64,000 bases of DNA, taken from contig NC_014248.1 in NCBI RefSeq assembly GCF_000196515.1, positions 2,287,001-2,351,000 of the forward strand. Reading direction: 5' to 3'. Origin of the DNA: 'Nostoc azollae' 0708. GTDB lineage: Bacteria > Cyanobacteriota > Cyanobacteriia > Cyanobacteriales > Nostocaceae. The position numbers and the translations under genes were made by a program. Numbering within the stretch: position 1 is the stretch's first letter; every line of letters starts with the position of its first letter. Of this stretch, positions 59,368 to 63,118 are shown in pieces. The notes below the pieces were generated by a model. The model was not told where the DNA came from. It saw only the letters and a program-made list of their open reading frames with translations, and searched no databases.

Positions 59368-60408
59368 CTATTGTTGATGGGATAAATCTAATAAATTAGC
59401 TAACTTATAAACTATTCTTGCTCCTACATTACCATCCCATTCAGCATCCCCAACTTCACAAATATCAAAACCGATAATTTTCCTACCGCTATTAACTAAT
59501 TCTCTAAACAAACAATAAGTTTGCTCTAATTCTAATCCACCAGGAACTGGAGTACCAGTATTTGGGCAGAGTTTAGGATCTAATCCATCCACATCAAAGC
59601 TGATATAAACATTTTCAGGTAAATTATTGATAATTTCTTGACATATATCAATCCAATTCATGCCGGAATATAATTTCTGTTTAATGGCTTGATCATAATA
59701 AGCAGTAATCCGACCATTAGATTCCTGAATTATATCTACTTCATCTTGACAAATATCTCTGATAGCCACTTGTACTAAGTTAGAAATTTGTGGAATCTTT
59801 ATGGCATTGAACATGATAGATGCATGAGAAAATTCAAATCCCTCATAAGCATCTCGTAAATCAGCGTGTGCATCTATGTGGAGAATGCCATAGTTTTCAT
59901 ATTTGGTAGCTAATGCTTGAAAATAACCCAAAGGTAAACTGTGATCACCTCCAATTACAGCCACTTTTTTACCCTGATTCATCGCGGCTTGACACTGGGT
60001 AAACAGCCATTGATTTATCTGTTCACCAGCTTGATTAATTGCTGTGAGTACAGGAGTTAAATCTGGTGTTTCTGTTAGTGCTTTACCTTCGGCTTGTCGT
60101 TGCATAACTTTGGCTGCTTCTTGACGATAGTAATTATTTTTCTCCAAAATATCTTTGGGAATTTCTTCGAGAAAAATCCCCTGTTTCCAACCGTCAGGAT
60201 GATCAAAATCAAATAAATCTATTTGATAGGAAGCATCTAAAATTCGTTGTGGTCCGTTTGCTGTTCCTGCACCGTAGGAAACGGTAACTTCCCAAGGTAC
60301 AGCAAAAATAATCAAGTTTGCTGAGTTATAATCATCAGGTAAACCCAGGATATTACCATTGATTTCAGCTATACCATTGGGGTTGTAGTCTTGGTTGTGA
60401 TTATTCAT
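59368..60408 (-). CDS. speB: Agmatinase/arginase-family ureohydrolase
   Basis: Mn-dependent ureohydrolase of 346 residues; the best match is agmatinase (agmatine to putrescine and urea). All metal-binding blocks are intact: VIGGDHSLPLGY, HIDAHADLRDAYEGFEFSHA and FDVDGLDPKLCPNTGTPVPG, with PWEVTVSYGAGTANGPQRIL near the start. Guanidine-hydrolysing relatives exist in cyanobacteria and belong to the same fold, so the substrate is not certain from sequence. No polyamine gene is adjacent. Downstream of it (right side, at 60498) begins the small-RNA array, whose RNAs would be on the same strand and upstream of this gene. Confidence 0.85.
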   Translation of the reverse strand: MNNHNQDYNPNGIAEINGNILGLPDDYNSANLIIFAVPWEVTVSYGAGTANGPQRILDASYQIDLFDFDHPDGWKQGIFLEEIPKDILEKNNYYRQEAAKVMQRQAEGKALTETPDLTPVLTAINQAGEQINQWLFTQCQAAMNQGKKVAVIGGDHSLPLGYFQALATKYENYGILHIDAHADLRDAYEGFEFSHASIMFNAIKIPQISNLVQVAIRDICQDEVDIIQESNGRITAYYDQAIKQKLYSGMNWIDICQEIINNLPENVYISFDVDGLDPKLCPNTGTPVPGGLELEQTYCLFRELVNSGRKIIGFDICEVGDAEWDGNVGARIVYKLANLLDLSHQQ

Positions 60409-60497
60409 CGCTGAGATTTCGGGTCTATATCAGCAGACAAAATCTGCTTTGTCTTTATCTTCATAATTGTAGCATTATAGACCAGTAAAATACATTT

Positions 60498-60611
60498 TAA
60501 AAAAAGGTTTGGTTTACTGCCAAACCTCTATAATTGCTGTGCTTAACAACGTACTAAATTAATTTAGTTCTAGTCTGCTTACAGATCATCTTCCTAAAGG
60601 ATGTATCCAAA
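60498..60611 (-). ncRNA. Tandem small RNA unit 1
   Basis: Minus-strand unit: conserved 5' box (ATCATCTTCCTAAAGGATGTA on plus, 60586-60606), AT-rich middle (AAATTAATTTAG), then hairpin AGGTTTGG/CCAAACCT (60505-60527) and a T-run. This is the copy closest to speB. Confidence 0.55.
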
Positions 60612-60712
60612 TGTCCTAACAACTGATACAGCCTTACTTGGTTAAAACTTTCAATCAAGTCAATTAGGTCCAACATTTTCGTATAAATCTAATTCAGTAA
60701 ATATCTTAGGCA

Positions 60713-60824
60713 TAAAAAAGGCTTGGACTAGATCCAAGCCTTGGTATATACCAGGTGTTTACCATATATAGTTAATTTAATCCCTATTTAATTAATGTTC
60801 ATCTTCCTATAAGATGTGTACAAA
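60713..60824 (-). ncRNA. Tandem small RNA unit 2
   Basis: 5' box CATCTTCCTATAAGATGTGT (60800-60819 region), middle TATATACCAGGTGTTTACCA, hairpin AGGCTTGG/CCAAGCCT (60719-60741) followed by a 6-T run on the minus strand. Confidence 0.6.
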
Positions 60825-60945
60825 TTTTTTAAAAGCTGCTAATGATTCACATTTTTATGAAGACATAGTTCAACAAGTTGATCATTAATATACTCGGTAA
60901 ACTTCTAACAAGCATTTCTACTACTGAATTAGGAAATGAGAAAAT

Positions 60946-60966
60946 ACCCTGAAATAAGTCCAGGGT
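60946..60966 (-). ncRNA. Tandem small RNA unit 3, degenerate
   Basis: Only the hairpin position is kept: ACCCTG/CAGGGT stem with weak T-run at the place predicted by the ~220-bp spacing; the 5' box cannot be recognised. Confidence 0.3.
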
Positions 60967-61162
60967 AAGAAATATTTTCAGGTATTAATAAATAGAATAT
61001 TACTCTTAATAAGGAGATATTTCCACTATCTACAGCATAATAATTTTATGCATTTATGTTCCAAGTATTTTTTACATGAAAATCTGAGATTAATTTGATG
61101 ATACTGGTAAATATTGGAGGTGATTAATTTACTTTCCCAGTAAGTTTAGTTTGATATTAGTA

Positions 61163-61275
61163 ATAAAAAAGGCTTGGTTGTTAGCCAAACCCAGACATAT
61201 ACCAAGTGTTTACCATATCTAACTAATTTAGACTTGCTTAGATTTCAATTCATCTACCTGTAGGATGTATACAAA
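61163..61275 (-). ncRNA. Tandem small RNA unit 4
   Basis: 5' box CATCTACCTGTAGGATGTAT, middle CATATACCAAGTGTTTACCA, hairpin GGCTTGG/CCAAACC (61171-61191) and 6-T run on the minus strand. Closest in sequence to unit 2. Confidence 0.6.
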
Positions 61276-61430
61276 GATGAGTGAATCTGTTATTGATTAC
61301 CCTAACTAATATCTAAATCGCTAGAAAGATTATACCGTATTTATTTTGAATTTTGTTGGTGCAACTCTTCTGAAAGAAGCATTTTTAATTCGGGGCGGTA
61401 CTAGGAGTATCTGAAATTAAACAGACTGAA

Positions 61431-61536
61431 AATAAAGACTTGGTGCAATACCAAGCCTTAACTGGAAGTATAATATAGTACCATACATTAGCTAATTTGT
61501 TAGAGAGATTAATCAGCCTATAGGAAGAATACAAAA
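61431..61536 (-). ncRNA. Tandem small RNA unit 5, diverged
   Basis: Hairpin GACTTGG/CCAAGCC, middle TAGTACCATACATTAGCTAA and a shortened 5' box (CCTATAGGAAGAATACAAA in reversed symmetry). The T-run is interrupted, so termination may be weaker. Confidence 0.4.
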
Positions 61537-61572
61537 TTTTCCAACTAATATGTCTATGTAATTTTATAGATA

Positions 61573-61686
61573 ATAAAAAAGGTTTAGCACTGTGCTAAAC
61601 CTCCATAGGAAGCAGTTATTCGACACACCAGAATTAATTTAATTCTCCTCTTTTTTATAGTCATCTTCCTATAGGTATCTATCCAA
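61573..61686 (-). ncRNA. Tandem small RNA unit 6
   Basis: 5' box CATCTTCCTATAGGTATCTA, hairpin GGTTTAGC/GCTAAACC (61581-61602) and 6-T run on the minus strand. It is 143 bp from unit 5, closer than the other spacings. Confidence 0.55.
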
Positions 61687-61914
61687 GAATCCCTTAATAT
61701 GATAGTTTTTCAAGAAATAGGAGTTTGGGATAAGTCTACTATCAAAAGATAGATTAGGAATTTAATGTATTAGTTCCTAAAGCTATACTATAACTAGTAC
61801 CGCAATGAATTCAAAATGCTTCTTTCAGAAGAGCTGCGCCAACAAAATTCAAAATGAATATGGTCTGAGCGTTTCAGAGATTTGGAATGGTTGGTTTATT
61901 TACGCCATGTTGTA

Positions 61915-62045
61915 CTAAGTAGGTGGGCGGAAAAATTTATAACTATGTCATGGTAAATGCAGCAAAGCGGAGTCAAGCAATCCCAAGGGTTTCAAGTAAT
62001 TTACATTTTGTTCTATAGTTATGTTTATTTGTGTCTACCTACTTA
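61915..62045. mobile_element. Miniature element with CTAAGTAGGT ends
   Basis: 131 bp bounded by CTAAGTAGGT (61915-61924) and ACCTACTTAG (62036-62045), with extended similarity (ATAACTATG inside both ends). Similar AAGTAGGTGGG sequence occurs at 20-30 and inverted at 41546-41556, perhaps single ends of the same family. Confidence 0.6.
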
Positions 62046-62058
62046 GGTTGAAAAATAG

Positions 62059-63118
62059 GTAAGGATTCAGGTGGTGGGATATTCACAAGTGTGATAGGTG
62101 AGGCAGAATATAGCAGTTATGGAAAAGAGGCTGCCACCAAAACTAGACAGAGAGATATTGAAGCAGTTGGGAACAGAGCAACTGGTAGAAATCATTATTG
62201 ACTAGGCCAAAAGTATAGAGAACCTAAGAAATAGAGTACTAGAACTGGAAAAGGAAATAGAGAAACTCAAAGTCAGTAGAGATTTAGAGACCATAACATG
62301 ATCCACACCACCCTTGGGAGACATCCTCAAAAAAACCGAGAACAAACAAGAAGAGAAACCAGAAGAAAACCAGACACAAATTTCCCCAAAGGAAACCAAG
62401 AGGACAACCAGGGCATAGGGGAAAAAGTAGAAAGGGGTTTGGTGGAGTAGATAGAATAGATTTGAGATAGTAGGACGGCAAGTGTATGGATGGTGAGGTG
62501 AGGGGCAATTGTTTGGCGAACCAATAAAAATCCAAACACAACAAGTAGTGGAGTTGGTGGACAGGCCAATGGAAGTGGATTTGCAGTGTGTGTGCGGAAA
62601 CACAAAGGGCACACTGGTCACAAGAGATAGTACCGGGACAAGATATAGGAATCACAGGACAAGCTTTTTTGGGATGGATCAATAACTAGGGCCATTGACC
62701 CTATGAAAAAGAATACTTCTTGTTGTGGGAACTGGGTCAAATAGAAATTGGACTGGGAACATTAGTAGGTACCAATGAAGGAATAGATGGTCCAGTGGCT
62801 CAAAGTATTCATAGCCTCAAACAGTGGATAAAACAAACCCAGCCTCATATCCTTGGGGATGAAACACCCTGGGTAGTCAAAGGGGTGAAACAATGGTTAT
62901 GGATTTTTGCCAATAGTAACTTCCCTTGATTTCATGGGTCCTGATACTCCTTGTCCTAGCGAATTAGAATCCATTGTGGGTTCAAGTTACTCTGGTGTAC
63001 TCAGTTCTGATGACTTTACTACCTATAACGGTTATGCGGTCACAGCTCAACAGAAATGTCAGGCATATCTACCCTACCCCGTCACTTCAAGACACTAATC
63101 AAGATTCCTGGCTTAAAA
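62059..63118 (+). mobile_element. IS66-like element, copy D, truncated by IS1634-like insertion
   Basis: Starts GTAAGGATTCAGGTGGTGGG at 62059. Transposase fragments: REILKQLGTEQLVEIIID, stop, KSIENLRNRVLELEKEIEKL (62130-62290), QIEIGLGTLVGTNEGIDGPV (62720-62929) and CPSELESIVGSSYSGVLSSD. The stop in the coiled coil and the TGA after LETIT are also in copy B. The 3' end is cut at 63118. Confidence 0.78.

Follow-up and report, generated by a model that had tools for sequence, protein, structure and literature searches.

Heterocyst-forming cyanobacteria serve as a model of cell differentiation in bacteria, and to our knowledge the multi-copy small RNAs (sRNAs) so far found in bacteria are mostly near-identical siblings. 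The sRNA NsiR1 is transcribed in a HetR-dependent, heterocyst-specific manner, and one of its arrayed copies is antisense to the 5' region of hetF. In Nostoc 7120, NsiR1 is present in 12 copies, in an array upstream of hetF (PMC9045159), and an array of 12 repeats is likewise described upstream of hetF in Nodularia (PMC3610870). A 51-nt sRNA of Nostoc 7120, 4547237r, is encoded 319 nt from the sRNA NsiR8 (4547556r), and its transcription was verified by Northern blot and primer extension (PMC4734099). The same study found that the level of 4547237r increases during prolonged nitrogen deficiency as well as at high density, and that homologues are confined to heterocystous genomes, 12 of the 27 having one (PMC4734099).

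Array layout and comparison with NsiR1

The locus described here lies in a window of 64,000 nucleotides from 'Nostoc azollae' 0708 (contig NC_014248.1, positions 2,287,001 to 2,351,000). On the minus strand, from 61678 to 60499 (C1 about 2,347.5-2,348.7 kb), this nitrogen-fixing filamentous cyanobacterium carries a row of six co-oriented promoter-terminator units (Table 1), essentially the span (60498-61686) in which the original prediction had placed six minus-strand units. Read along that strand and assigned with type profiles, the units follow the sequence C-H-E-I-D-B. Each has its own 5' segment, and the units are not copies of a single RNA. Units H and I are the most diverged of the array; for H, decay of the unit is conceivable, while unit I was recognised solely through the units of relatives and not through the hairpin family of the other five. 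Folded singly, the six predicted RNAs gave z values from -1.26 to -3.75, those of C and E being unremarkable, and the minimum-energy fold of I departs from a simple terminator.

Table 1. Features of the array and its surroundings in window coordinates, with scores (bits) against the profile of the unit's own type and fold z of the predicted RNA
Feature	Position	Strand	Elements	Profile score	Fold z
Unit C	61575..61678	-	dyad box 61678-61662; -10 TAAATT 61641-61636	94 (profile contains close relatives)	-1.76
Unit C predicted RNA	about 61629-61575	-	starts GGTGTGTCGAATAACTGC; terminator GGTTTAGC/GCTAAACC plus T-run
Unit H	61430..61527	-	box-like CTTCCTATAGGCTGATT 61527-61511; decayed -10 TAATGT 61490-61485; terminator GGCTTGG/CCAAGTC	45	-3.54
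Unit E	61165..61267	-	box 61267-61251; -10 TAAATT 61230-61225	83	-1.26
Unit E predicted RNA	about 61218-61165	-	starts ATATGGTAAACACTTGGTATAT; terminator
Unit I	60938..61040	-	variant box CTGTAGATAGTGG; RNA with TTAATACCTGAAAA; no clear -10; terminator of another kind, ACCCTGG/TCAGGGT	42	-2.87
Unit D	60714..60816	-	box 60816-60800; -10 TAAATT 60779-60774	85	-3.75
Unit D predicted RNA	about 60767-60714	-	starts ATATGGTAAACACCTGGTATAT; terminator GGCTTGG/CCAAGCC
Unit B	60499..60603	-	box 60603-60587; -10 TAAATT 60566-60561	96	-3.14
Unit B predicted RNA	about 60554-60499	-	starts GTACGTTGTTAAGCACAGC; terminator GGTTTGG/CCAAACC
Inverted repeat, 93 nt	61312-61404 and 61794-61886		arms 83% identical
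Arginase-family gene	59368-60408		91 nt downstream of array
69-aa frame	62720-62929		no Pfam match

Several other features surround the units. One arm of the inverted repeat lies between units H and E and the other upstream of unit C, and a diverged pair of the same repeat occurs in a locus of the same genus (L046). The arginase-family gene scores below the agmatinase equivalog cut-off (152.2 against 174.3 bits), and the 69-aa frame resembles what we take to be a fragment of an IS66-type transposase.

The original prediction had offered two identities for the array: an NsiR1 array displaced from hetF, or a different multi-copy sRNA family. The former would suit a heterocystous host and tandem units of about 60 nt with their own promoters and terminators, as NsiR1 has (PMC9045159), and the NsiR1-type units of the host genome also carry a TAAATT-like -10 element. 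However, that genome has its own hetF-linked array. Its HetF equivalog (NF045509, 1450.6 bits against a cut-off of 1200; L016:4695-7202, C1 about 28.7 kb) is preceded on the opposite strand, in the layout published for NsiR1 (PMC9045159), by an NsiR1-type array (L016 1539-4586, C1 about 25.5-28.6 kb) of seven units that each have TCCGGA ahead of the RNA. Six of these form the array proper and one lies immediately before hetF; a further, eighth TCCGGA in this region has no unit. The window array lies about 2.3 Mb away from this array rather than upstream of hetF, TCCGGA (the DIF1 motif, found near -35 of each NsiR1 unit) is absent from window positions 60000-62200, and the RNAs of the two arrays differ in a by-eye comparison made within the host genome. 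Whereas NsiR1 units are near-identical, sit at hetF and carry TCCGGA, those of the window are unlike each other, stand elsewhere in the genome and have another promoter box. Given the separate hetF array, the missing TCCGGA and the different RNA sequence, we rejected NsiR1 as the identity of the array, and the chance that it is a displaced NsiR1 array seems to us close to nil. The second suggestion was correct in that the family is a different one, but its members are six distinct, separately conserved sRNAs and not copies.

Relation to RF02596 and distribution among relatives

A covariance search with the Rfam family RF02596 (cyano_het_sRNA) scored unit B at 36.8 bits, above the cut-off of 35.7, and units D, C and E below it (30.8, 23.1 and 19.7 bits), while units H and I gave no match. 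The host genome contains one canonical RF02596 copy (C1:1330116-1330171, 81.3 bits) with the same exact box, located 336 nt downstream of the 5' end of NsiR8. In two relatives (L019 and L039), the Rfam starts of RF02596 and NsiR8 are exactly 319 nt apart, and NsiR8 lies upstream, above cut-off, at 14 of 20 canonical RF02596 loci, including that of the host. Because this spacing and layout agree with those published, we conclude that RF02596 is the Nostoc 7120 sRNA 4547237r. The window units resemble it in their dyad box, TAAATT -10 element, length and terminator, with unit B above the family cut-off. RF02596 has been described as a single sRNA next to NsiR8; in contrast, the window array consists of six further types, their 5' segments are different, and five of the six fall below the cut-off or are unmatched. 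An Rfam scan of the window found no NsiR8, so the array lacks the position downstream of NsiR8 that characterizes 4547237r. In the literature on RF02596, 4547237r, NsiR8 and tandem sRNA copies, supplements aside, we found no description of the array; the other array members were not recognised in the portion consulted of the Nostoc 7120 sRNA table (PMC4734099).

The conserved middle that the original prediction had attributed to all six units was not borne out; a middle segment, ATGGTAAACACYTGGTAT, is common only to the units starting at 61267 (E) and 60816 (D). Units were gathered by script from the collected loci by box, -10 element and terminator alone, yielding 226 distinct units with a spacing of 20 (186 units) or 21 (40 units). 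By 5'-end patterns drawn up after inspection of the unit list, 223 of them sort into types (A 32, B 41, C 43, D and E together 56, F 30, G 15, H 6); type I was identified separately from this collection. Mean pairwise identity at RNA nt 3-24 is 0.90-0.98 within types A-F, and lower in G (0.58) and H (0.75). The promoter spacer (0.46-0.73) and the 30 nt above the box (0.55-0.72) were unselected in the locus collection. The box itself, at 0.77-0.90 in types A-F, is less conserved than the transcribed 5' segment. Figures for box and -10 element are inflated, since the loci were gathered via the box or RF02596.

The order of the types is fixed across relatives. Among 48 distinct arrays, counted as at least three co-oriented units with type-profile matches of at least 40 bits, 45 strictly follow the order C-H-E-I-D-B-F-G, and in the remaining three the D position is taken by a unit whose best score is to the sister type E. 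Arrays contain three to eight units, with type C present in 41, H in 19, E in 40, I in 38, D in 29, B in 44, F in 33 and G in 15; one weak G match (25 bits, L112) is out of order and under the threshold. In one genome (G010), a six-unit array is present in duplicate, the copies being about 5.3 kb apart (L164, C1:3131500-3141500). The arginase-family gene flanks 10 of 44 loci examined, and because flanking genes differ between lineages, we rejected neighbouring genes as a guide to array function.

Distribution was assessed with several searches. RF02596 matches 133 of the 217 genomes of the host's family (E <=0.01), and the box followed by N20 and TAAATT, with at most one mismatch, occurs in 150 of them, against 8 matches in 8 genomes for the reversed-pattern control; part of the matches to the box pattern are not sRNA units. 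A covariance model built from 52 units of types A-H matched 135 of the 217 genomes at E <=0.001 (1 to 9 matches each), a number that includes the host and about 20 family genomes that match by construction, since their units were built into the model. The model found no match in the other 82, so the array is dispensable or has been lost in parts of the family. In an order-wide sample, 57 of 388 genomes matched (E <=1e-6), all 57 from the host's family, and a stricter box pattern searched in one genome per species (84,980 species) matched 32 stretches, all from genera that we take to be heterocyst-forming. The nearest named locus compared, that of Sphaerospermopsis aphanizomenoides, aligns to the array locus at 84.5% over 3866 bases; identity to Sphaerospermopsis kisseleviana NIES-73 is 75.5%.

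Promoter element and terminators

The conserved box that had been predicted exists as a degenerate 17-bp dyad, best written CATCCTnTAGGAAGATG and common to most units, although the exact 10-mer originally given, TCCTATAGGA, is absent from 60401-61800. Five units differ from CATCCTnTAGGAAGATG by 0 (two units), 1, 3 and 4 mismatches and the sixth by more. Units C, E, D and B have exactly 20 nt between the box and TAAATT; unit H has the box, 20 nt and the decayed TAATGT, and unit I a variant of this layout. Across relatives the spacing is likewise 20 nt, or mostly 21 in type A. Genome-wide, the exact box occurs at three places, all at units of the RF02596-related group (the canonical copy and two window units), which is beyond what chance would give, and with at most two mismatches at 17 places, compared with 6 for the reversed control. 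A logo of 183 spacing-20 units contains additional conserved bases as far as -74. If TAAATT is taken as -12 to -7, the dyad occupies -49 to -33 and has its centre at -41, a usual position for activator sites. The NtcA site of NsiR3 is also reported at -41 (PMC3610870).

Across the family, matches to box plus TAAATT in or before protein genes are too few to name a regulator. Similar matches lie upstream of protein genes at five loci, one (L158) whose product we presume to be a PRC-barrel protein and four (L151-L154) whose products look to us like sugar-binding proteins. In six family genomes (L145-L150), a related box, CAGTCnnAAGRCAGATGA, is followed by 20 nt and TAAATT. Behind it lies a different conserved intergenic segment, about 100 nt long, that ends in a CAGAGTAAAAA/TTTTTACTCTG hairpin; this segment has no Rfam match at E 0.01 and may be a tenth sRNA belonging to the regulon. 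In the host genome itself, a lone box with two mismatches, TAAAGT and a GGCTTGG/CCAAGCC terminator (C1:2802534, plus strand; L076 1501) may mark an extra member whose RNA falls outside the named types.

A hairpin with T-run had been predicted for all six units. Five have one of the GGYTTRG type, whereas that of the unit at about 61040-60938 is different. Covariation in the stem, also predicted, is upheld by an alignment in which many genomes contribute a total of 52 units (types A-H): 99.8% of the 416 cells of the 8-pair terminator stem are paired, and both sides have changed in 36 cells, compared with a shuffled mean of 11.8 (0 of 500 shuffles reach 36). Double changes affect three stem pairs, a number equalled by 21 of 500 shuffles. 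This covariation supports a role in termination, and is by itself no proof of a regulatory role.

Possible function of the array

At the level of sequence, our analysis establishes the architecture of the units, their colinear order across genera, the type-specific 5' segments (near-invariant in most types), the dyad shared by most units and the covarying terminators. We consider it fairly probable that the locus is a cluster of six different sRNA genes with their own promoters and terminators, paralogous to RF02596, acting by 5' pairing and controlled by one activator. Such an activator would bind the dyad centred near -41 and turn on the whole set, perhaps when nitrogen is limiting or in stationary phase, the conditions published for 4547237r (PMC4734099). 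The 5' segment of each RNA (about 25 nt) would base-pair with mRNAs, and because the target set would differ for each type, one signal could be spread over several sets of mRNAs. Counting against this reading are the divergence of units H and I, the poor -10 element of H, the lower RNA conservation of types G and H, the array members not recognised in the consulted portion of the Nostoc 7120 table, the 82 family genomes with no match to the covariance model and the outcome of the target searches.

Searches of six genomes with the complements of the D/E/F and A/B cores identified no conserved mRNA partner. The D/E/F complements gave 55 matches (13 being the sRNAs themselves) against 14 for the reversed pattern, and the A/B complements 31 (12 self) against 11; the contexts of part of these matches had no orthologous gene in common by blastp. 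A 15-nt stretch exactly complementary to type A occurs about 38 nt before a gene that we take to be nrtA, encoding a nitrate transporter, in three of the eight nrtA-bearing genomes among 11 searched in one genus, with duplex energies of -31.4, -34.2 and -27.4 kcal/mol (each reached by 0 of 300 shuffles). It is missing in the other five genomes and before nrtA of G210, G202 and G102, and the host genome gave no match at 1e-100. We treat this complement as lineage-specific or a chance occurrence.

The main activity of the RNAs might instead be to bind a protein or to sponge other RNAs, which would suit their long, near-invariant 5' segments with no obvious target and the self-complementarity of some types: H-H, D-D, G-G and F-F were lowest among 55 uncorrected pair tests, in which signals between types were weak. 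Yet if all types bound one protein, a motif common to them would be expected, and the 5' segments are strongly unlike between types, so that we regard this mode of action as unlikely. What most types have in common is a promoter element and a terminator, as expected if the boxes titrated a transcription factor or the units were transcriptional barriers with the RNA as a by-product; such a role is made quite improbable by the fact that the 5' segment is more conserved than the box in types A-F.

Very short peptides are another conceivable product, as types A, D and E have an ATG within a few nucleotides of the predicted start, and ATGGTAAACACYTGGTAT is present in D and E. In types B and C, however, that place lacks an ATG, and read by eye the C-terminal parts vary, the frame ends vary among D units and a change of ACT to TCT between D and E alters a residue, which makes coding very improbable. 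The units also bear little resemblance to a functionless intergenic repeat that spreads: the types are distinct, conserved in type-specific fashion and fixed in order, and matching genomes hold few matches each, which outweighs the lineage-dependent flanking genes and the doubled array of G010 and leaves an extremely slim chance for this explanation.

Returning to the cluster of different sRNA genes, its broader form, a regulon found so far in one family of heterocyst-formers in which up to eight arrayed sRNAs and RF02596 would obey one activator and each would address its own targets through its own conserved pairing region, carrying one signal to many messages, seems to us evenly poised between true and false. 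If true, a widely conserved and ordered group of dissimilar sRNAs that share a promoter type would be the operon's counterpart at the post-transcriptional level. With the array, the orphan sRNA 4547237r/RF02596 now belongs to a family and has a promoter motif and a defined knock-out set, which makes its regulator and targets testable.

The array resembles Qrr, OmrA/OmrB and LhrC in that paralogous sRNAs would stand under a common regulator. Those siblings largely share their pairing region, whereas the window array and its relatives have type-specific 5' segments and a fixed order of types. The best reading is thus of a known kind, clustered sibling sRNAs, with distinct pairing regions, fixed order and a common switch as its new features.
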